Assembly: GCF_022539405.1 (NCBI RefSeq)
Contig: NZ_CP054394.1
Coordinates: forward strand, 312,501-376,500
Direction: 5' to 3'
Length of the DNA stretch: 64,000 bases
Origin: Natranaerofaba carboxydovora
GTDB lineage: Bacteria; Bacillota; Natranaerobiia; Natranaerobiales; Natranaerofabaceae
Of the stretch, positions 4,945 through 15,024 are shown piece after piece (the stretch's first letter is position 1; every line of letters starts with the position of its first letter). The position numbers and the translations under genes are program-made. Under the pieces are notes generated by a model. The model made no database searches. It was not told where the DNA came from and saw only the letters and a program-made list of their open reading frames with translations.

Positions 4945-5009
4945 TTCTGTATCACTTCCTTTTGTTTGACTATAAACATGATTTGGCTAAATAATTATCG
5001 ACTAATGTA

Positions 5010-6293
5010 TCAACTGACTAGTGAATGGTCTTTTGGTGATAAAGAGAGTATATCTGCTACTTGAGCTGGATATTTGGCAATGAATTTTAGCTCTTCTTCT
5101 GTTAAAGGCTGCTGATTATGGGCATTGGCATATTGTACAAGTTTTAATACTTCTCGCTCATTATCGATTTGTACACCCATGGATTCGTACAGGTGCTTAA
5201 GCCCTTTGATACCGCCGAATTCACCGGTTGATATATTGCTTTTTACAGGTTTTATTTGATTGCTTTCGTTTATTCCCAGGTCTTCAGGGGAGTAAAGCTC
5301 ATAATTTCTGCGATCTTTTAACATTCCGTCAGCGTGAATACCTGATTCATGAGAGTACATGTTACTTCCAATACCAATCTTGTTCATTGGGATTGGTATT
5401 CCAAAGGCGTTGGCCGTGTAGTTACATAACTTCCATGCTTTTGTGAGATCAATGTTTGGGTCGAGGATATCTTGTTCTTCAAGGCCGCAGGCATGTTTTA
5501 TAGCTAGTATTACAGCTACTAGATCTGCATTGCCTGCTCGTTCTCCGATGCCATTAACTGTAGTATTGATATAAGCGTCAACTCCTGCATCGATTGCTCC
5601 CATCGCACCTTCTACTGAATTGGCAACTGCATACCCGGTATCATTATGACAGTGAAGTTCTATAGGAAGCTGGACTTCCCCGGCAAGTCTCTTAACGCTT
5701 TCATAAATAGACGGTGTTCGTTCGTAACCAAGGGTGTCACAGTATCTTATTCTGTCTGCACCGTGTTTTTTAGCTTCCCTTGCAAAATGCAAGAGGAAAT
5801 CCTCGTCAAAATTGCTGTTGTTACCTTTGACTTTGGTACGTGATGCATCCTCTGCGTTAACTCCAATAGTTTTAATCCCGTACTCTTTAGCAAGACTAAC
5901 TGCTTCTGTCATCATTTTGATTATGTCGTTACCTTCTGTTTGAGCGCCAAATTTGCTTTTTACCATTATTTGTGAAGTAGGGATAGAAAGATTTATATGT
6001 TCTATGTTTGTAAGTTCTAAGGCTTTTTTGACATCTTCGGGGACTGCTCTTACCCACCCTTCTAGAATCATGTTGTTCATAACACCTTTTTTGGCTAAGT
6101 CCAGGTTTGCTTCAACGTAATTTTGCTCGTGTTTTAAGGTCGGGAAACCAAATTCACTCTGATAAATCCCCATTTCACCAAGGTAATGATTGACCATAGT
6201 CCTTTGAAACTTTGATAATACTACGTTTGCTGTTTGTACCCCGTCACGGTTTGTTACGTCAAGTATATAGATTCTGTTCTTTTTCTCTTTCAT
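5010..6293 (-). CDS. Probable (Re)-citrate synthase, homocitrate/isopropylmalate synthase-like
   Basis: This 427-aa protein has a DRE-TIM metallolyase fold rather than the ordinary (Si)-citrate synthase fold. It shows the N-terminal DVTNRDGVQTANV, HINLSIPTSQ, RIRYCDTLGYERTP, the metal-binding HCHNDTGYAVAN and NTTVNGIGERAGNADL. Proteins of this kind have been shown to be Re-citrate synthases in clostridia and Dehalococcoides. The assignment rests on the operon: aconitase and isocitrate dehydrogenase follow directly, giving acetyl-CoA plus oxaloacetate to 2-oxoglutarate for glutamate synthesis. No lysine or leucine genes are near. Homocitrate synthase is the alternative. Confidence 0.78.
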   Translation of the reverse strand: MKEKKNRIYILDVTNRDGVQTANVVLSKFQRTMVNHYLGEMGIYQSEFGFPTLKHEQNYVEANLDLAKKGVMNNMILEGWVRAVPEDVKKALELTNIEHINLSIPTSQIMVKSKFGAQTEGNDIIKMMTEAVSLAKEYGIKTIGVNAEDASRTKVKGNNSNFDEDFLLHFAREAKKHGADRIRYCDTLGYERTPSIYESVKRLAGEVQLPIELHCHNDTGYAVANSVEGAMGAIDAGVDAYINTTVNGIGERAGNADLVAVILAIKHACGLEEQDILDPNIDLTKAWKLCNYTANAFGIPIPMNKIGIGSNMYSHESGIHADGMLKDRRNYELYSPEDLGINESNQIKPVKSNISTGEFGGIKGLKHLYESMGVQIDNEREVLKLVQYANAHNQQPLTEEELKFIAKYPAQVADILSLSPKDHSLVS

Positions 6294-6336
6294 AAAAATT
6301 CACTCTCCCTTCTAGCCCTTTTAAAATTTGTTAATA

Positions 6337-6365
6337 ATCCTAGCACGCAAATTGGATAGTGTCAA
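6337..6365 (-). promoter_or_regulatory. Sigma-A promoter of the citrate operon
   Basis: Read leftward, TTGACA and TAGGAT are separated by exactly 17 bp, about 45 bp ahead of the citrate synthase start. Confidence 0.8.
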
Positions 6366-6387
6366 TACATTGGGGCTAATCCAATTT
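6349..6387. promoter_or_regulatory. Candidate operator: perfect 9-bp inverted repeat around the -35 box
   Basis: AAATTGGAT (6349-6357) and ATCCAATTT (6379-6387) are perfect complements separated by 21 bp and bracket the -35 hexamer of the citrate operon promoter. The position suggests a repressor or activator site that reads citrate or nitrogen status; the binding protein is unknown. Confidence 0.5.
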
Positions 6388-6667
6388 GACGACAAAAACA
6401 AAAATTCACCCTCGAATTCTACATAAAAAGCGTTATAACGGGAAATTATTATAAAGCAAAAAATATAAATTTTTAATTAAAAAAATTGGTCAAATGCCAT
6501 CTGGTGAACAGCAAAACAACTAAATTTTGCTAGCGCAATATTTGCTTGAGTAAAAATTGAAATTAAATTTTTCATTAGATCTATACGAAAAAAGGAATGA
6601 TTATTGTATTTGTCGAATGTAACTTCAGGAAAGTATTTAGATGATTCTGAAACAGGGAGGGGTTAGT

Positions 6668-6841
6668 ATGGCAGCGAAAGTTGACAAAGAAAAATGTACT
6701 GGATGTGGACTATGTGTAGAAGCCTGTCCGATGGATATCATTGTTTTACAAGATGATGTTGCAGTTGTTGAAGAAGAAGAGTGCACTGATTGTGGTGAGT
6801 GTGTTGAAGAATGTCCAGAGGAAGCTATTGAACTAGAATAA
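6668..6841 (+). CDS. 2[4Fe-4S] ferredoxin
   Basis: A 57-aa acidic ferredoxin with two complete cluster motifs, CTGCGLCVEACP and CTDCGECVEECP, giving eight cysteines. It is a soluble low-potential electron carrier of the clostridial type. The ATG at 6668 is chosen because GGGAGGGG lies 5-12 bases upstream; an earlier in-frame ATG at 6641 has no such site. It is monocistronic with its own terminator. Possible partners in the window are the bifurcating hydrogenase and other redox enzymes. Confidence 0.93.
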   Translation: MAAKVDKEKCTGCGLCVEACPMDIIVLQDDVAVVEEEECTDCGECVEECPEEAIELE

Positions 6842-6858
6842 TAGTTAGACAGAACTTT

Positions 6859-6898
6859 AGGCCGTCTTTATTAGTGAAAATAAAGACGGCCTTATTTA
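6859..6898 (+). terminator. Terminator of the ferredoxin gene
   Basis: A perfect 12-bp stem (AGGCCGTCTTTA and its complement) with a 10-nt loop, followed by a T-rich tract, 18 bp after the stop codon. Confidence 0.85.
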
Positions 6899-6901
6899 TA
6901 T

Positions 6902-7171
6902 TTCTTAGATTTTCAGGCAAAGGAAGTTATAGGGACTCCTCACTTTATTACCAGAATTGAAGAAGGGTTAGAGATTATGGAACATTTAAGGGGTTATACA
7001 TCAGGAATGGCTATTCCAACGTATATAATTAATGCACCCGGTGGAAGGGGCAAAACTCCTATGCTGCCTGAGTATTTAATCTCACAAGGTAAAGATAAAG
7101 TAACGATAAGAACCTGGGAAAAGAAAGCATTTGATTATCCAAACCATGGTCCAATGGAAACAGAGGACTAG
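6902..7171 (+). pseudogene. 3' remnant of a lysine 2,3-aminomutase (KamA-like) gene
   Basis: The frame reads as about 89 residues matching the extreme C terminus of the radical-SAM KamA family: a GTPHF step, then IEEGLEIMEHLRGYTSG, the APGGRGKTPMLPEY segment and a short acidic tail. The radical-SAM CxxxCxxC core and PLP Lys are absent. The readable frame starts directly at the ferredoxin terminator, so the 5' three quarters of the gene has been lost. An internal ATG at 6977 could start 64 residues but no functional enzyme. A weak hairpin at 7201 follows. Confidence 0.78.
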
Positions 7172-7200
7172 ATAAGCGAAAGGTAAAATGAAGTATTAAT

Positions 7201-7236
7201 TAGGGACTTATTAAAGTGCAGTCCCTATTTTTAATT
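7201..7236 (+). terminator. Probable terminator after the KamA remnant
   Basis: An 8-bp stem TAGGGACT/AGTCCCTA with an 11-nt loop, followed by TTTTAATTTT. Confidence 0.6.
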
Positions 7237-7259
7237 TTGATGTATAATGTGTGGAGAAT

Positions 7260-7820
7260 TTACTGCTCTGGATATGGTGGCCATGGAGGATCGTATTCAG
7301 GACATTCGTCTAATACTTTTTCTTTACATTCTGGGGGCTGAGGGGCAAAACCATAGGCTGGTATTAGTAATTGAACGTGGGCGAAGAGCTTAATTAAAAA
7401 TAATTTTCCCACGCATAAAATAATTGTATCTTCATCTATTATGAAGGCATCTAGACATTCTAAGAAAACTTCACACTGCGGTTTCAGACCTGATTCATAT
7501 GCCCTTGATAGAGTGACAGTTTTTTCGAAAGTTTCAAGTACAGAGAATTTTTCATCATCAATTACAAAAATTACTTCATATTTTATCCATACTCTTATTT
7601 TCTTCTCGCCTATTATTTCACATTCCTTATCAATAAGATTTACCTTTTTGCAAGTGACTTCGTCTACATCTATTATTTTGTCGAAATCTTCATCTATTGG
7701 GAGGTCAATTTCAATTTTATTAACATCAATTTGTTTACATTCTTCATAAACTTTATCAATTTTAACACGTTCTATTAAAGTTGGAGGGGGAATTGGAGTG
7801 GTATTTTGTTCATTTGACAT
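7260..7820 (-). CDS. Beta-rich hypothetical protein, possibly spore coat (SPOCS-like)
   Basis: This 186-aa soluble protein has no signal peptide or membrane segment. It is built from alternating beta-like segments (ECEIIGEKKIRVWIKYEVIFV, then FEKTVTLSRAYESG) and ends in a Pro/Cys-rich tail (LIPAYGFAPQPPEC and a PPWPPYPEQ terminus). The pattern recalls SPOCS/DUF3794-type spore proteins, but I do not recognise it firmly. It diverges from the first YheC/YheD-like gene, and the whole neighbourhood looks sporulation-related. GGAGG precedes its ATG. Confidence 0.5.
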   Translation of the reverse strand: MSNEQNTTPIPPPTLIERVKIDKVYEECKQIDVNKIEIDLPIDEDFDKIIDVDEVTCKKVNLIDKECEIIGEKKIRVWIKYEVIFVIDDEKFSVLETFEKTVTLSRAYESGLKPQCEVFLECLDAFIIDEDTIILCVGKLFLIKLFAHVQLLIPAYGFAPQPPECKEKVLDECPEYDPPWPPYPEQ

Positions 7821-7994
7821 TTTCTTTTACCTCCTGACGCTTTCTAGTCTCTTTACTTATAGTTTATGTAGTAGATTGTAAACATGGGAATTAATTTTGT
7901 AATTGTTTAATCACTAATAGTTAAACTCAGGGGTTAGAAAAACATAATATGATTAAAAGTACATTCATTTGTACCCCTGGAGGTGGCAATAAAT

Positions 7995-9098
7995 ATGCAA
8001 AAAGACTTTTCGCCACTAGTTGGAGTATGTATCAATAGCAGTAAAGTTAAAAAGTTAAATCAATCTTTAGAAAGAGGTTCTATAAATTATCTACTAGAGG
8101 CAAATAAAAAATTGAATACAAATCTTTATTTTTTTTCGCTAGTTGACATTAATTTTGAAGAGGATAAAGTTCGTGGTTATATCTATGATGAAACATGCAA
8201 AAAATGGGAAGAAAGGTTTTCCCCTTTGCCTGAAGTGCTATACAAAAAGGGAGGAGTAAAGAAAAAAGAAATAGGAGAGTTTAATTCCCTTATAAACTCG
8301 ATAAATAAGAATAATATTAAGTTAATTAATCCTATGAGAGGATTTAACAAATGGGAGCTTCATAAACATTTCCAAAAAAACAAGAAAATTAGCCCCCATT
8401 TAGAAAAAACAGTGTTATTTCTAAATCCAGAAGATTTACAAGAAATGATTTATGAGGAAGACTCGATCTATCTAAAGGCTGTACGGGGTAGATGTGGTAA
8501 AAATTTAATGAAAATTAAAAAGTTAGATAAGGGTTTTTTGAGTACATTTTTTAGGAAACAACCTAAAAAAATACCGGCAAAAAGTTTTGAAGAACTTTTA
8601 GATGATATTGATAGATTTTTTGGAGGTAGTCCTATTATAGTTCAAAGAACTATTGATTTGTTAAATATTGATAATAAGTTAGTGGATTTAAGGGCAGAAG
8701 TTCATAGAAACTATAATAATGAACTTGAGATTGTTGGCATCCCTGTTAGGATTGGAGAGGCAGAATCCCCAATTACACAGCACTCTAAAAGTTATACCTT
8801 TGATAATTTTTTTCGTAATACTATAGGTTTGTCTGATACACAAATAAATGAATTATATATGGTGGTTGAGAATTTGTTATACGAAGTATATAAGAGTGTA
8901 GAAGACTATTACGGAAATTGTGGTGAAATAGGTATTGATATTGGGGTGGACAAAAATTTACAAGTAAAATTAATTGAATGTAATTCTCAACCTACCAAAA
9001 TATCTCTAAAAGATGCTTACGGGGAAGAGGCTGTTAAAAAGGGGTATGAAAAAATTTTAGAGTATGCTTGCTTTTTAGCGTCTCCGAAAACGATCTAG
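7995..9098 (+). CDS. YheC/YheD-family ATP-grasp protein
   Basis: A 367-aa member of the YheC/YheD endospore coat-associated ATP-grasp family. Marks are an N-terminal VGVCINSSKV, YFFSLVDINFEEDKVRGYIYDE, the PEVLYKKGG segment, a mid ILV-type FGGSPIIVQRTIDLL, DLRAEVHRN, and the C-terminal metal-binding CGEIGIDIGVDKNLQVKLIECNSQP. Bacillus relatives are linked to the spore coat; ATP-grasp folds usually ligate a carboxylate to an amine, but the substrate is unknown. ATG 7995 is preferred over GTG 7983, which overlaps the GGAGG. Its 3' end overlaps the convergent SET gene by 24 bp. Confidence 0.85.
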   Translation: MQKDFSPLVGVCINSSKVKKLNQSLERGSINYLLEANKKLNTNLYFFSLVDINFEEDKVRGYIYDETCKKWEERFSPLPEVLYKKGGVKKKEIGEFNSLINSINKNNIKLINPMRGFNKWELHKHFQKNKKISPHLEKTVLFLNPEDLQEMIYEEDSIYLKAVRGRCGKNLMKIKKLDKGFLSTFFRKQPKKIPAKSFEELLDDIDRFFGGSPIIVQRTIDLLNIDNKLVDLRAEVHRNYNNELEIVGIPVRIGEAESPITQHSKSYTFDNFFRNTIGLSDTQINELYMVVENLLYEVYKSVEDYYGNCGEIGIDIGVDKNLQVKLIECNSQPTKISLKDAYGEEAVKKGYEKILEYACFLASPKTI

Positions 9099-9566
9099 TT
9101 TAGAGGCATTATCAATTTTTTCTTTTATTAGATAGACAATATGATCATTCAAATAATGTGAAGCTAGGATATTAACAGGTGTCCACCATGCTCCCCCTAT
9201 ATAACTTATACACTCGGGTTTATTGCAATTGCAAACAAAGGGGCTTGACATATCCCATTCAGTAGAAGGGTAGAAGAAGTTTAATTCTTCCCTTGAATCA
9301 ATGTTCTTAAGAGCATAAACTGCCCCTTTTTTAGTATCTATAATAAGGTTTGGATCACAACTATGGTTTAAAAGACTAAAAAAAGAGTCGGCTAATATAT
9401 GTTGGTTAATTCCAACTTGTACCGTCTGGTAGGTTTGTTCTCTTATGGTGCAAGTAGGATCAAATGTTAACAGTATTGTACCGGGCAAAATTTTTTTGGT
9501 TGCTCTAAGACAGCTCCCTAGTGCACCTAATGACTTCTCATACAAGGTATTTCCTCTCCCTTTCAA
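9075..9566 (-). CDS. SET-domain protein lysine methyltransferase-like
   Basis: A 163-aa SET-domain protein with all core signatures: an N-terminal GALGSCLRATKKILPG, the pseudoknot NHSCDPN (residues 67-73), EELNFFY (93-99), and a post-SET cysteine cluster CNCNKPEC (112-119). SET proteins transfer methyl from S-adenosylmethionine to lysine. Its TTG start overlaps the TGA of the upstream YheC-like gene (TTGA), which indicates translational coupling, so the two products probably act together. Its target is unknown; spore-coat protein is an inference from context. SET proteins are uncommon in Firmicutes outside a few groups. Confidence 0.85.
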   Translation of the reverse strand: MKGRGNTLYEKSLGALGSCLRATKKILPGTILLTFDPTCTIREQTYQTVQVGINQHILADSFFSLLNHSCDPNLIIDTKKGAVYALKNIDSREELNFFYPSTEWDMSSPFVCNCNKPECISYIGGAWWTPVNILASHYLNDHIVYLIKEKIDNASKLDRFRRR

Positions 9567-10933
9567 TTATCATTTGTCTCCCATAAAAACTTTCCATATT
9601 TTAATGGATTTGAAAAAGACCTATAAACAGACTCATCATCAGAAGCAAGATATAATGTGTCCTTGCCTGGTTTGGCATTACACTCAATAAACCATATATT
9701 CAAATCCTTATCTAAAGCAAAATCTATCCCAATCTCTCCAAAGGGTCCATATATATCCTCGATATACTTAAAGGTTGTTAAGAGAAAAGTTTCGATATTT
9801 TCTATGGTTTTATCAACCCTTGTCTTAGAATAACTAAAGTGATCTATTAAAAAGGAGTCTAAAGGATAAACTGACCCTCCCGCTCTAGTGCTAGTGACCG
9901 GACTATTTGTTTCCCCTATACGAGCAAAAATCGGGCCTAATTCTAATTCGTTTTTGCCGTTTCTTTGAACTTCTGCACGCATATCCACATTACAGTAGTC
10001 ATTTACTTGTAATACATTTATTGCAGTCTGAATTATTATTCTACTGCCTTCAAACATTTTGTTAATTTCGTTTTGTAAATCATCTACAGAACTAAAATTT
10101 TTGGTAAGTATTTCTTCCTTAAAATAGCTTAATTCATAATTATTGCTAGAAAGTTTCGTTACCCTTGCGACACCAGTACTATTGTTGCTAGTGCAATTTT
10201 TAATAAAAATACAATTATGTGATTGAAGCATGGTTTGTAAGTCCTGGTGGTTATTATATAAGGTGGTCTTTGGGAGATAAGATGACATTTTGGTATACTG
10301 GGATAAATTTTTAAAAACATCCCATTTATCAAAGAAGTAGCTAGAATTTATTTTTTGTAAGTTTGAATTTTCTTCAAGTTCTTTTCTAATATCTTGGGAT
10401 AGTTTCTTTTGTGATTTAAGTGTTCCCCCGCCCCGATCATACAAAATGTCTGGGTAAGGAAAAATTTTCTCTTCAAATCTATTAGTTTCCTCATTATAGT
10501 AAGTGCCCCTAATTTTTTTGCCGGAAAAATCCATATCCTTAATCGAGAAAAAGTATAGGACAGCATTTGATTCTTTATTGGCCTTTGCCATCTCTAGTAT
10601 TCTAAAGTGGGGGTGTTGTTTTTTTGCTTTTCTTACACGTCCATTACTGACAAAAACACCGATTACTGGACCTATACTAAGCTTGTTATTTTTAACCATT
10701 AAATTGGTTTGTATTCTGTTTGAAAGTCCCATTTGTTTTGCAATTTTATTTGGAATCCCTATAACATTTTCGGTATTGTTTTCATAACATGTAACTTTTG
10801 TTTTTTGGGTACTAACTTTTAATACTTTAGGATTATTGTTATCTAGAAGTTTTTTAATCTTTTTTGGAGCGGTTATACTTATCGAAGAATTATTGAAAGT
10901 ATTAATAATGACAGGAATAGATGTTTTTTTCAT
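9563..10933 (-). CDS. YheC-like ATP-grasp protein with N-terminal extension
   Basis: A 456-aa YheC/YheD-family protein. Residues 1 to about 90 form an extra beta-rich domain (VIGIPNKIAKQMGLSNR) seen in YheC-type members; the ATP-grasp part then follows with PVIGVFVSNGRVR, FPYPDILYDRGGG, SRIIIQTAINVLQ, DMRAEVQRNGKNELEL and FGEIGIDFALDKDLNIWFIECNAKPG. The ATG at 10933 is chosen because AAGGAG lies nine bases upstream; the earlier GTG overlaps that site. It is coupled to the downstream SET gene and has the same direction as the third paralogue at 11014. Confidence 0.85.
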   Translation of the reverse strand: MKKTSIPVIINTFNNSSISITAPKKIKKLLDNNNPKVLKVSTQKTKVTCYENNTENVIGIPNKIAKQMGLSNRIQTNLMVKNNKLSIGPVIGVFVSNGRVRKAKKQHPHFRILEMAKANKESNAVLYFFSIKDMDFSGKKIRGTYYNEETNRFEEKIFPYPDILYDRGGGTLKSQKKLSQDIRKELEENSNLQKINSSYFFDKWDVFKNLSQYTKMSSYLPKTTLYNNHQDLQTMLQSHNCIFIKNCTSNNSTGVARVTKLSSNNYELSYFKEEILTKNFSSVDDLQNEINKMFEGSRIIIQTAINVLQVNDYCNVDMRAEVQRNGKNELELGPIFARIGETNSPVTSTRAGGSVYPLDSFLIDHFSYSKTRVDKTIENIETFLLTTFKYIEDIYGPFGEIGIDFALDKDLNIWFIECNAKPGKDTLYLASDDESVYRSFSNPLKYGKFLWETNDN

Positions 10934-11013
10934 AAGTCTAATCTCCTTCACGGAATATATTTTGATAGTAATAATTTATTCTGAAGTAAACTCATTGTGT
11001 GTTTTTTGGGGAT

Positions 11014-12144
11014 TTAATAGTGATATAAAAAACGGGCATAATCAAATATAGCCTGAAATTGAGGGTGCACTCCCTGGCAATCGTCAAGACCTTCCACTAA
11101 GTCTTTGTCAGGCTTTGTATTTACTTCTAAAAACCACAGCTTCCCATTAATATCTACTGCTATATCTAAGCCTAACTCCCCGAATGAACAAAACTCTTTT
11201 TCAATATGGTATGCTATTTTTACTGCAGTGTTTGATACATCTTTTGGTGTTGGAATGTTAACATTAGATTGACTTAACAACTCAGGATAAATATTCGAGT
11301 AAAAATTGCATTCACTTCCGACAGAATAATTAGTAATTGTCTGGTTTTCTTTAGCCGCGATCCTAGCATAACTGTTAATAGCTTGCCATTTTCCTTGACT
11401 ATCCTTTATAAGCAAAATTCGGATATCAAAAGGGCGGTTTTTATAATTAAGTAGTCTTATTCCCTGCTGGACAAGGAAACTTCCCCCAGAATTATTATCC
11501 ATGAATTCTTCTACAATTTTTTTCAATTCTTGTATATTACCTATCTCATTCTCTAGTAATCCATTAGAAAATGTAGCAACTTTGTATGAACTACTTGAAC
11601 CGGTCTTTTCAATGGACATTACTTCTTTGCCTCTTTTGCCATAAAAGGATTTAATAAAAATAAATTTATAACTTCTTAGCATGATTAAGACATCGTTAAA
11701 GTTTTGATAGCGAATTGTAACAGGTAGATATTTTGCTACAAAGTCATGTGATAGTAGATACTTATATGTGTTCCATTTGCCGATATAATCTCTGCTATTT
11801 ATAGTCTTAATCTTTAACTTATCTCTGAACTTTGTACGAATTTTTGACACTGCTTCTTTTTCACTTTCTGAAAATCCTGAACCACGATCATAAATAACAT
11901 CTGGAAAAGAAAACCAACGATAACACCATTCATTTGAGTCTAAATCAAAAGTTAGTCCTTTTATTTTCTTGTGTTCCCAGTCAATACTGTCTATCGAGAA
12001 CAGATAACAAACAAAGTTGTTAGCGTGACCTGCTAAGATATGATCTAGATCAGTTGTGGAATTATCAACAGAAAGACGTGCTGGTTTTACAAAGATGCCT
12101 AAAACCGGATTTTCATTTTTAGAATCTTTATTTTTGACCTTCAA
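11014..12144 (-). CDS. YheC/YheD-family ATP-grasp protein (third paralogue)
   Basis: A 376-aa family member lacking the N-terminal extension of its neighbour. Seen: PVLGIFVKPARLS, FPDVIYDRGSG, GSFLVQQGIRLLN, FDIRILLIKDSQGKW, and the C-terminal FGELGLDIAVDINGKLWFLEVNTKPD. It starts at TTG with GGAG nine bases upstream. It lies 80 bp ahead of the YheC-like gene and is probably co-transcribed with it. A remnant of the MITE family sits in its leader. The substrate is unknown. Confidence 0.83.
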   Translation of the reverse strand: MKVKNKDSKNENPVLGIFVKPARLSVDNSTTDLDHILAGHANNFVCYLFSIDSIDWEHKKIKGLTFDLDSNEWCYRWFSFPDVIYDRGSGFSESEKEAVSKIRTKFRDKLKIKTINSRDYIGKWNTYKYLLSHDFVAKYLPVTIRYQNFNDVLIMLRSYKFIFIKSFYGKRGKEVMSIEKTGSSSSYKVATFSNGLLENEIGNIQELKKIVEEFMDNNSGGSFLVQQGIRLLNYKNRPFDIRILLIKDSQGKWQAINSYARIAAKENQTITNYSVGSECNFYSNIYPELLSQSNVNIPTPKDVSNTAVKIAYHIEKEFCSFGELGLDIAVDINGKLWFLEVNTKPDKDLVEGLDDCQGVHPQFQAIFDYARFLYHY

Positions 12145-12169
12145 TTTGTAATCACTCCAACCACCTACT

Positions 12170-12211
12170 AATTAAAAATGCTATACTTATGTGAATATAC
12201 TTTTTGCACAA
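12170..12211. repeat. MITE fragment (copy G, one end)
   Basis: About 42 bp match the inverted left end of the full element at 30768: AATTAAAAATGCTATACTTA followed by TGTGAATATACTTTTTGCAC. It lies in the leader of the third ATP-grasp gene. Confidence 0.65.
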
Positions 12212-12308
12212 AAATTGCTGTTAAATGAAAAAATTTTGTGATGTAATATAATATTTATTAATGTCAGTTTAGTTGAAGGTTTGATAACAGCTAAAGGTAA
12301 AACAAATA

Positions 12309-12333
12309 AAAAAGCCCTGCCTTTGTGGCAGGG
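12309..12333 (-). terminator. Terminator of trxB
   Basis: Read leftward, CCCTGCC and GGCAGGG form a 7-bp GC-rich stem followed by CTTTTTTATTT, about 65 bp past the trxB stop. Confidence 0.8.
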
Positions 12334-12397
12334 TAAAAACTAACGGCAAAATATGATAATATATTTATGGTTATATCTAAATATAGCTAAATGATAT

Positions 12398-13321
12398 TTA
12401 AATAGTTAGCTTTTTTTCCAAGTCAAAGGCAGCTGTTGCACCGTCTGACATGGCCGTTACTACCTGGCGAAGGGTTTTTTGCCTTACATCTCCTACAGCA
12501 TAAACTCCGTTCACGTTTGTTCTCATCTCCTCATCAGTAAGGATATAGCCGTTATCATCTAAATTCACTTTTCCTTCCAAAAATTCTGTATTTGGATTAA
12601 CTCCCACGTAAATAAATACACCGTTACACGAAAGTTCTTGTTGTTCCTGGGTTTTTACATTTTCTAAAAGAACATTTTCTACTAGTGCATTCCCTTTAAT
12701 TTCTTTGATTACTGTATCAAGTTTGACTTCGATTTGTTCGTTGCTAAAGACTTTTTCTTGAAGGTATTTTACCCCTCTAAGCTGGTCTCTTCTATGTACA
12801 AGGGTCACTTTTTTGGCAAAACGGGTTAAGAAAAGTGCCTCTTCTAAAGCAGAATCTCCGCCTCCGACTACTACAACTTCTTTATCTTTAAAAAAGGCAC
12901 CGTCGCAAGTTGCGCAGTAAGAAACTCCTCTTCCTGTAAATACCTGCTCACCTGGAACTTTAAGCTCTCTTGGGCTTGCTCCGGTTGCGACCACAATACC
13001 TTTTGCAGTGTAATTTTCTCCACTTTCTAGCATGACTTCTTTGAGGTTTCCGGATAAGTTAAGGTCTTTTACTGTTCCCATTTTTAGATGAGCACCGAAT
13101 TTTTTTGCTTGTTCGTCTAATTTTTTGGCCAAGTCTGGGCCAGTAGTTCCTTCGGGAAAGCCCGGGTAATTATCTACATGTTGAGTGTTGATAAGCTGAC
13201 CGCCAGGTGCCATCTTCTCAATTAGAAGAACATTCATCCGTGCCCTGGCACCATAAAGGGCTGCTACAAGTCCTCCGGGACCTCCGCCGATTATTATCAT
13301 ATCATAATTTTGATTTTCCAC
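12398..13321 (-). CDS. trxB: Thioredoxin reductase
   Basis: A 307-aa FAD/NADPH disulfide reductase with GGGPGGLVAALYGARA (FAD), the redox-active CATCDG, GGGDSALEEA (NADPH), and the C-terminal GVYAVGDVR. The usual length supports the GTG start at 13321, preceded by AAGGGGG; the longer reading upstream has no ribosome-binding site. It sits just behind an ArsR regulator, 64 bp apart with a repeat end between them, and near a selenocysteine glutaredoxin-like gene, so the area may serve thiol homeostasis. Confidence 0.95.
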   Translation of the reverse strand: MENQNYDMIIIGGGPGGLVAALYGARARMNVLLIEKMAPGGQLINTQHVDNYPGFPEGTTGPDLAKKLDEQAKKFGAHLKMGTVKDLNLSGNLKEVMLESGENYTAKGIVVATGASPRELKVPGEQVFTGRGVSYCATCDGAFFKDKEVVVVGGGDSALEEALFLTRFAKKVTLVHRRDQLRGVKYLQEKVFSNEQIEVKLDTVIKEIKGNALVENVLLENVKTQEQQELSCNGVFIYVGVNPNTEFLEGKVNLDDNGYILTDEEMRTNVNGVYAVGDVRQKTLRQVVTAMSDGATAAFDLEKKLTI

Positions 13322-13362
13322 TAAAAAAACCCCCTTATAAATAGTCATATTTATATTTAATA

Positions 13363-13384
13363 TGATTCTGGTGCAAAAAGTCAT
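13363..13384. repeat. Single MITE end (copy E)
   Basis: TGATTCTGGTGCAAAAAGTC is an almost exact copy of the terminal inverted repeat of the full elements. It is placed between the arsR stop and the trxB leader; no partner end is nearby. Confidence 0.6.
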
Positions 13385-13385
13385 C

Positions 13386-13742
13386 TTATTTATCAGTTTC
13401 ACCTTTGTTGCTTCTATCTTCCTCTAATATTTCTTTTGAACTATTTACTAAATCAGATAAGCGTTCTAACATAACCTCTCTCATGATATCACATGCCTCA
13501 AGCACCCTTGGATTACACAACTCAAAATATACATTTAGGCCTTCTTTTCTTGTGCAAACAAGGCCTTTATCTCTTAATATTGACAAATGTTGAGAAGTAT
13601 TAGCTCTACTTGTTCCTAGTTCATTTGCTATCTCATCAACATGTTTTTCGCCTTCTTTTAAAAGATATATAATTTCTATTCTTTTAGCATTTGATAACAC
13701 TTTACACATATCAGCATGAAGTTCGTAAAGCTTTTTTTTCAT
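13386..13742 (-). CDS. ArsR/SmtB-family repressor
   Basis: A 118-aa winged-helix regulator: HADMCKVLSNAKRIEIIYLL, the recognition region ELGTSRANTSQHLSILRDKG, then a beta wing and C-terminal helix. Cysteines at LVCTRK and in ELCNPRVLEACD could form a thiol or metal sensor; the family includes metal, arsenic and sulfide/redox sensors. It precedes trxB in the same direction, so it probably controls thioredoxin reductase and itself. The inducer is inferred only. Confidence 0.87.
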   Translation of the reverse strand: MKKKLYELHADMCKVLSNAKRIEIIYLLKEGEKHVDEIANELGTSRANTSQHLSILRDKGLVCTRKEGLNVYFELCNPRVLEACDIMREVMLERLSDLVNSSKEILEEDRSNKGETDK

Positions 13743-13888
13743 TTTTTTCCCCCTTATGTGTTAAAATTAACCAAGTACAAGTATTATATTAGTAGTTAAT
13801 AAATTTGTTAATTAATTTAACAGAATTATATGAGACATTAAAAATGTTGTCAAATTAGTTTTAAGTTGATTGAACTAAAGCCAGATTA

Positions 13889-13917
13889 TTGACATTTCAA
13901 TTTTACTTTAATATAAT
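13889..13917 (+). promoter_or_regulatory. Consensus sigma-A promoter for the amidohydrolase
   Basis: TTGACA (13889-13894) and TATAAT (13912-13917) are both perfect and separated by 17 bp, about 72 bp ahead of the start codon. Confidence 0.85.
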
Positions 13918-13988
13918 CCACATCAAACCATACTAATTAAGTAATTAATGAAGTAGTTGACTTTAGTTATTGAGGAGGAAACTTTTTA

Positions 13989-14918
13989 ATGCAAGAAAAA
14001 ATAATTATGCCCGACTTTCCGGTAATAGATTTTCATATGCACCTTCCAATAAAAGGTAGCCCTCCAAAGAAAGCAGCGGTTAATGATCCTGCCATTATAA
14101 AGCATAGGGAAAAGCTTCAAAGTAAGTTTTTTGAAAAATGGGGTTTTTCGAAACCAAATGGCAAAATGTATTCTCCAGAAGAAGCTGCAAAGCTTTGGAA
14201 CAAAGAAAAAGAGTATTACGGCTTAGAAAAGCTAAATGCTGTAACTGCCGGGTTTGATAATGATGTACTTGCTGAAATAATCAGTTCTTACCCAAATACT
14301 TTTGAAGGTTTTGTCCATCATGATATACAAGAACCTGGCTCTTTAGATGAATTAAAACGAGGAATTGAAACTCTTGGTCTAAAAGGCTTAAAAATTCTAG
14401 CTCCTTTTATGGATGAGCCCTTTGATTCACCTGAATTTGAGCCTATATGGCAGTATATGAACGAAAAAGAGCTTCCTGTTTTGATTCACTTTGGCATAGC
14501 GGGTGGAGCAGGAGGACTTGTTAGCTATAAATTAATAAGCCCTCTGTCAATTTTTGAAGTAGCACGTTCTTATACAAGTATCCCTTTTATTATTCCTCAT
14601 TTTGGGGCAGGCTATTTTCAGGATGTTCTTCATCTTGCATGGTCATTACCTAACATATATGTTGATTCCTCTGGATCTAACCAATGGTTAGATTGGATGG
14701 CTTATGATTTGGAACTTAAAGATATTTTTAATAAGTCCTTGAAAACATTGGGTCCGGAGAGAATGATTTTTGGCACCGACTCTAGCTGGTTTCCGAGAGG
14801 GTTTAGTTATCCCTATCTAAAAGTACAGCTAGAGATACTAGAAGACTTAGGAGTTAGCAAAAAAGATCAGGAGTTATTCTTTTCAAAAAATGCTAGAAGA
14901 CTTCTCGGGAATGATTGA
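13989..14918 (+). CDS. Amidohydrolase-2 family metal-dependent hydrolase
   Basis: A 309-aa TIM-barrel protein of the amidohydrolase 2 family. Metal ligands are apparent in FHMHLP near the N terminus, LIHFG in the middle, IPHFG, and the C-terminal FGTDSSWFPRG with the catalytic Asp. Members hydrolyse or decarboxylate cyclic and aromatic substrates; none can be chosen here. AGGAGG precedes the ATG and an ideal sigma-A promoter lies upstream. It is expressed alone or with the selenoprotein gene 106 bp downstream. Confidence 0.85.
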   Translation: MQEKIIMPDFPVIDFHMHLPIKGSPPKKAAVNDPAIIKHREKLQSKFFEKWGFSKPNGKMYSPEEAAKLWNKEKEYYGLEKLNAVTAGFDNDVLAEIISSYPNTFEGFVHHDIQEPGSLDELKRGIETLGLKGLKILAPFMDEPFDSPEFEPIWQYMNEKELPVLIHFGIAGGAGGLVSYKLISPLSIFEVARSYTSIPFIIPHFGAGYFQDVLHLAWSLPNIYVDSSGSNQWLDWMAYDLELKDIFNKSLKTLGPERMIFGTDSSWFPRGFSYPYLKVQLEILEDLGVSKKDQELFFSKNARRLLGND

Positions 14919-14945
14919 TTTAAATTGATAAAAAAAGTGAGCAAT

Positions 14946-14980
14946 TTATTCTGGTGCAAAAAGCCATTTGTAGCCAGAAT
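14946..14980. repeat. MITE end forming a small hairpin (copy F)
   Basis: TTCTGGTGCAAAAAGCCAT resembles the MITE terminal repeat. ATTCTGG and CCAGAAT on either side form a 7-bp stem with a 19-nt loop. It lies between the amidohydrolase and the selenoprotein gene. Confidence 0.45.
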
Positions 14981-15024
14981 AAAAATTAAATAAAAACAAC
15001 AATAATTTACAAGGGGGAAATTTT

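Follow-up and report, generated by a model that had tools for sequence, protein, structure and literature searches.

The ATP-grasp enzymes of the YheC/YheD family (PF14398) are common in spore-formers, where they come in multiple copies, and the product of these ligases is, to our knowledge, uncharacterised. In Bacillus subtilis, yheC and yheD are sigma-E genes (PMC517825). SET domains act in methyl transfer, and among the activities known for them in bacteria there is one towards an amino acid in free form: BurB of Burkholderia thailandensis (PDB 9l4t/9l4v) is a SET-domain S-methyltransferase of free methionine, which it contacts through main-chain atoms (PMC12542666). Modules of these two types, a SET-like domain and a TTL/ATP-grasp-like domain, are found in one protein, human TTLL12, in which critical residues are missing in both domains and which was reported to be inactive in vitro (PMC3520985). 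This was the sole relevant case met in the PMC full-text literature on SET with ATP-grasp or YheC, where an earlier mention of the pairing may nevertheless exist.

It is against this background that we may consider a locus from Natranaerofaba carboxydovora where a SET gene is embedded among YheC/YheD genes. The window, i.e. the whole stretch of DNA that was analysed, is 64,000 nucleotides long and belongs to a genome of 3.26 Mb in one contig, which codes for five PF14398 domains and one SET domain only. The interval 7260-12144 comprises five genes. P186 (7260-7820, minus strand) codes for a protein of 186 residues with a Pro/Cys-rich C-terminus, for which the structure model is all-beta and a Pfam search returned no match. 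It is transcribed divergently from Y371 (7983-9098, plus strand; probable start ATG 7995), a YheC/YheD-type ATP-grasp of 371 residues (PF14398, E 1.5e-62). The minus strand then carries the SET-domain methyltransferase gene (9075-9545, 156 aa, TTG start; PF00856, E 1.2e-8), the 3′ end of which overlaps convergent Y371 by 24 bp, followed by Y462, directly upstream of it (9563-10951, probable start ATG 10933; PF14398, E 2.4e-67), and by Y376 (11014-12144; E 9.9e-67), both again of the YheC/YheD type. The three ligases are full-length, scoring 211-227 bits against a Pfam cut-off of 26.8, and all keep the metal-binding ExN motif of ATP-grasp enzymes (ECN, ECN and EVN at residues 332, 423 and 340 of Y371, Y462 and Y376, respectively). 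Pfam and the open reading frame calls thus agree with the preliminary description of the island as three YheC/YheD genes around an intact SET gene, with a divergent beta protein. Upstream of the interval, a 64-residue open reading frame (6977-7171, plus strand) is a C-terminal remnant of glutamate 2,3-aminomutase (TIGR04368, E 3e-26). It shares 77% identity with a complete copy elsewhere in the genome (L183:7636-8877) and is hence a decayed duplicate; being closer to this stand-alone copy than to the aminomutases linked to YheC/YheD genes elsewhere (48-52%), it was ruled out as an ancestral partner of the cluster.

The manner in which SET is connected to the gene preceding it has to be revised. 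Its TTG start had been thought to overlap the stop codon of the ligase gene, in a TTGA sequence, and this is doubtful. Ahead of SET the minus strand reads TTGAAAGGGAGAGGAAATACCTTGTATGAG, where a Shine-Dalgarno sequence, GGGAGAGG (9553-9560), lies 7 nt upstream of TTG 9545, and the N-terminus read from this codon (LYEKSLGALG...) is in register with those of three homologues (MYSIS..., MYSVS..., MHTIA...). Translation of SET thus very probably begins at TTG 9545 and not at TTG 9566, the codon that overlaps the stop, and the overlap is therefore not likely to be a coupling device. A 17-nt gap, holding SET's own Shine-Dalgarno sequence, separates the Y462 stop from the SET start, and with this gap the arrangement still looks like an operon.

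How far does this association extend? Among 398 genomes of the phylum scanned for SET domains, 15 had one, and in three of these, all from one genus (g116) of another family, SET lay directly beside YheC/YheD genes. The g116 proteins are 53-56% identical to the SET of the window, or 47% for one copy with a divergent N-terminus. When the survey was widened to 84,980 species genomes, 80 loci with SET homologues were recovered, the closest four of which are metagenome-assembled genomes of Bacillota, three being the g116 genomes and the fourth M17C-03 (L035). YheC/YheD neighbours are present at all four, hence in two lineages besides that of the window, and at none of the 76 more distant loci. The co-occurrence of SET with YheC/YheD supposed in the preliminary description is thus found in all four other genomes recovered for the SET clade. 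In a maximum-likelihood tree, the YheC/YheD-linked SET proteins (window, L033, L034, L035) form one clade (support 100/99), and every member of it, as well as L036, adjoins YheC/YheD genes. All the YheC/YheD genes detected in G137, G355 and M17C-03, six of them in the latter, are located at the SET locus, and in the class to which G137 belongs SET is found in 3 of 13 genomes, exactly those with YheC/YheD clusters. The ligase adjacent to SET in G137, G333 and L035 is orthologous to Y376 of the window (SH-aLRT 99); this ligase clade is also present in G001, without SET, and Y462 orthologues are found in a YheC/YheD array of the same genome. In two species (L025, 13855-15368; L026, 4704-6217, minus strand), a Y462-type gene is interrupted by an identical -1 shift at a slippery-like A-rich run (CAAAAAATC; GAAAAATTTA), which may reflect programmed frameshifting, slippage during transcription or a lesion common to both.

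A sceptical reader could see in SET a mere passenger, horizontally acquired into a variable YheC/YheD array and sharing no function with it: its distribution is patchy (the genus of the window, g116 and M17C-03 only), and gene content varies among the arrays. We hold this to be very unlikely. Three lineages have preserved the linkage, always with a Y376-type ligase as neighbour, while the local gene orders around it differ; SET is under purifying selection (dN/dS about 0.16 between two species); and, as discussed below, coupling with ATP-grasp enzymes recurs elsewhere in the SET family. A rough estimate from coordinates puts the chance for a random gene to be located at a YheC/YheD locus at about 0.5% per genome, so that chance could hardly have produced the association in three lineages. 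The exception would be a block passed on or transferred as a whole, and this would imply coupling as well. Since SET is the sole SET gene of its genome and the pairing recurs in all other genomes recovered for the clade, the pairing is not due to chance.

What would such an association be for? The P186 family points towards the spore. The P186 model (pLDDT 86.6) has no clear match in the PDB, the best (Z 4.5, rmsd 5.4, 74 residues aligned), with alpha-crystallin domains, not being interpretable. The family, which has no Pfam or NCBIfam model, is conserved in spore-forming Bacillota, where it was found in 26 of 101 relatives. P186 was also considered as a CotE (PF10628) or SPOCS protein and rejected as such, hhalign giving CotE a probability of 2.4% and none of 24 homologues having a credible Pfam match. 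Family members adjoin YheC/YheD genes in three genomes, and in the genome of the window a paralog adjoins spoIVA (TIGR02836, 781 bits), a few genes away from a double YheC/YheD protein; paralogs are directly beside spoIVA at L028 14310-14966 and L145 8093-8674. The double protein (L028 8347-11142, minus strand) is made of two fused YheC/YheD modules in 931 residues, and a similar tandem exists in G002 (L169). When promoters were scored for the sigma-K consensus (CACA/CACC, 15-17 nt, then CATANNNTA) with a threshold of at least 12 of 13 positions, the P186 promoter of the window (7860-7888, minus strand; CCCA at 7888-7885, 16 nt, CATAAACTA at 7868-7860) matched 12 of them. In terms of motifs, sigma-K-like promoters precede 14 of 30 P186-family genes as compared with 4 of 132 neighbour genes (p=5e-9), and such sites are weakly enriched before YheC/YheD genes (p=0.03). 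No sigma-E site before P186, YheC/YheD or SET genes rose above background; the spoIVA controls scored poorly too, which makes the sigma-E scan an insensitive one.

The YheC/YheD genes bring their own connection. Of 20 arrays in other genomes, 7 have cotE (PF10628) as a neighbour and 11 have a COOH-NH2 ligase (PF14395). SpoIVA was found in the genome of the window and in the three g116 genomes, and a search of M17C-03 gave no match, perhaps owing to incompleteness of that genome. PF14398 is also present in some non-spore-formers among the control genomes, so that this family does not by itself imply spores. Upstream of the SET operon, neither a sigma-E nor a sigma-K site stands out. The sporulation link of the preliminary description, which proposed to look for such sites, is thus supported for P186, with its sigma-K-like promoters and spoIVA neighbour, and for the YheC/YheD genes, with their cotE neighbours and their sigma-E control in B. 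subtilis; for the SET gene itself it is conjectural.

The substrate of SET is the most delicate point. The enzyme, a small relative of animal histone methyltransferases, has its motifs intact: NHSC, FFYPSTEW and the CxCx4C post-SET cysteines. N60-H61-S62-C63 and Y92, the catalytic tyrosine, are invariant among 30 homologues, as are the post-SET cysteines. Comparison of profiles with solved proteins gives BurB as the best match (79 bits, with most of the protein aligned), histone methyltransferases coming next with 40 bits; the structure model (pLDDT 93.3) likewise matches BurB first (Z 14.8, rmsd 3.0, 124 residues aligned), then ASH1L (Z 12.2). SET had been presented as methylating lysines, and with a closest solved relative acting on free methionine this becomes one option among others. 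It has its merits: SET shares with histone methyltransferases the asparagine of NHSC, absent from BurB where it is a leucine, and the zinc cysteines of the post-SET region, its model strongly matches the domains of ASH1L, SETD2 and MLL (Z 10-12), and the lysine-rich P186 is encoded in the same island. SET would then be a protein-lysine methyltransferase acting on coat proteins, possibly P186, on which the ligases would act independently. Yet the closest relative by sequence and by fold is not a protein methyltransferase, and the place of P186 as substrate is weakened by its distribution. The P186-Y371 pair is kept in two genomes of the same taxonomic order, G001 and G002 (L114/L115, L143/L144), both without SET, which is therefore dispensable for the pair of YheC/YheD and P186; moreover, P186 was not seen near SET at L024-L026 or L035, and accompanies it in the window only. 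Of the two serious options, the lysine mechanism, with or without P186, is the less favoured; we find it rather doubtful.

Kinship with BurB invites another view, in which the product of SET would be a diffusible metabolite, for instance S-methylmethionine, and the cluster would produce a small peptide instead of modifying the coat. Small peptides are frequent products of ATP-grasp enzymes, and, as will be seen, members of this SET family in other phyla have Ddl-like ligases as neighbours, with no evident spore link. Against this stands the detail of the active site. By alignment, H93 and Y124 are kept among the BurB contacts, whereas H72 is replaced by Q, R133 by S and H138 by N, and the residues through which BurB contacts the adenine, ribose and amino acid ends of SAM are mostly not conserved. 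Nor were genes of a DMSP/bur pathway recognised among the open reading frames of positions 5000-15000 (neither PKS nor SMM decarboxylase), the island has no transporter among its genes, and P186 as well as the second YheC/YheD locus point to spores. We consider a diffusible product improbable, distinctly more so than lysine methylation. Because of the altered contacts and of the NHSC asparagine, the SET of the window is not classed as a BurB, and this leaves room for a protein lysine as substrate.

Sibling YheC/YheD clusters also carry enzymes that modify amino acids. Those of M17C-03 (L035) and G095 hold glutamate 2,3-aminomutase genes with a mutual identity of 74%; in an array of G044 a KamA-type aminomutase is the neighbour of a Ddl-like ligase, and one of G001 has a DDAH/arginine-deiminase-like gene, split into two open reading frames (these aminomutases and DDAH-like genes lie at L035 5292-6533, L182 9854-11119, L152 1588-2805 and L150 5974-6741). 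Their presence makes a chemistry of amino acids or tags the more likely reading. Distant members of the SET family have kept comparable company: six of the 76 distant homologues adjoin Ddl-like ATP-grasp enzymes, most of which carry a second SET domain. In Caldilineaceae, Gemmatimonadaceae and Chlorobiaceae, a stand-alone SET sits beside proteins where a Ddl-like ATP-grasp (PF07478) is fused to SET (L037 4177-5694, Chloroflexota; L060 7645-9078, Gemmatimonadota; L108 10448-11917, Chlorobiota). SET and ATP-grasp were therefore coupled repeatedly, and this recurrence, as read from gene neighbourhoods, suggests a functional bond between the SET family of the window and amide-forming ligases. In Microcoleus sp. 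FACHB-1515 (L102 9881-13485), a SET of the same family adjoins an adenylation-PCP-reductase (NRPS-like) gene.

We can therefore understand the island, with a probability of roughly one half, as a spore-surface modification cassette in which SET is an accessory methyltransferase of the YheC/YheD pathway. The conserved linkage, the intact catalytic motifs of SET, its purifying selection and the enrichment of P186 promoters are observed; for amide ligation in the coat, for when SET is expressed and for what it methylates, we infer a scheme along these lines. The YheC/YheD enzymes would form ATP-driven amide bonds in the mother cell, by which amino acids or short peptides would be attached to proteins of the coat or to metabolites bound to it, and P186 would act with them as a protein of the coat or exosporium made late, under control of the sigma-K type. 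SET, a SAM-dependent enzyme inherited together with the Y376-type ligase, would methylate most likely the amino acid or peptide tag handled by the ligases, before or after ligation, and failing this a lysine of a coat protein. We know of no ligation or methylation product for any member of the system. The pairing of SET with YheC/YheD is probably a working part of the chemical finishing of the spore surface in some bacteria. A still broader proposal is put forward tentatively, as possible and no more: systems made of an amide ligase and a SET enzyme, encoded by neighbouring or fused ATP-grasp and SET genes, would build methylated amino-acid or peptide tags in several phyla, and would have been recruited to the spore coat in some Bacillota, acting there on ligated amino acids, not on protein lysines. 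That the ligases have a dedicated methyltransferase, and that sibling clusters hold aminomutase and arginine-hydrolase-like genes, suggests that the building blocks are unusual amino acids, a reading that yields testable predictions of mass shifts in spores. If the cassette is what we propose, a fold of the histone methyltransferase type takes part in finishing the spore surface, a new bacterial setting for SET enzymes.

It is worth placing the island once more among the systems that resemble it. With the YheC/YheD genes of sporulating Bacillota it shares its ligases, three full-length proteins in which the ExN motif is present, and the association of these with spore genes (the P186 family and spoIVA, and cotE elsewhere), and it differs from them by its SET methyltransferase, absent from all 20 other clusters examined. 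With the Ddl-like ATP-grasp–SET fusions of Chlorobium, Caldilineaceae and Gemmatimonadaceae it has in common a stand-alone SET of the same family with ligase chemistry nearby, while those loci use another ATP-grasp family, PF07478, without YheC/YheD and in no evident spore setting. TTLL12 unites in a single protein the module types that the island keeps as separate genes, its SET belonging to a SETD3/4/6-like subfamily unrelated to that of the window (PMC3520985). BurB, finally, is like the SET of the window, to which it is about 27% identical, a stand-alone minimal SET with post-SET cysteines, the catalytic tyrosine and a YxSTE motif; the genomic setting sets them apart, the DMSP/malleicyprol pathway for BurB, amide-forming ligases for the enzyme of the island.
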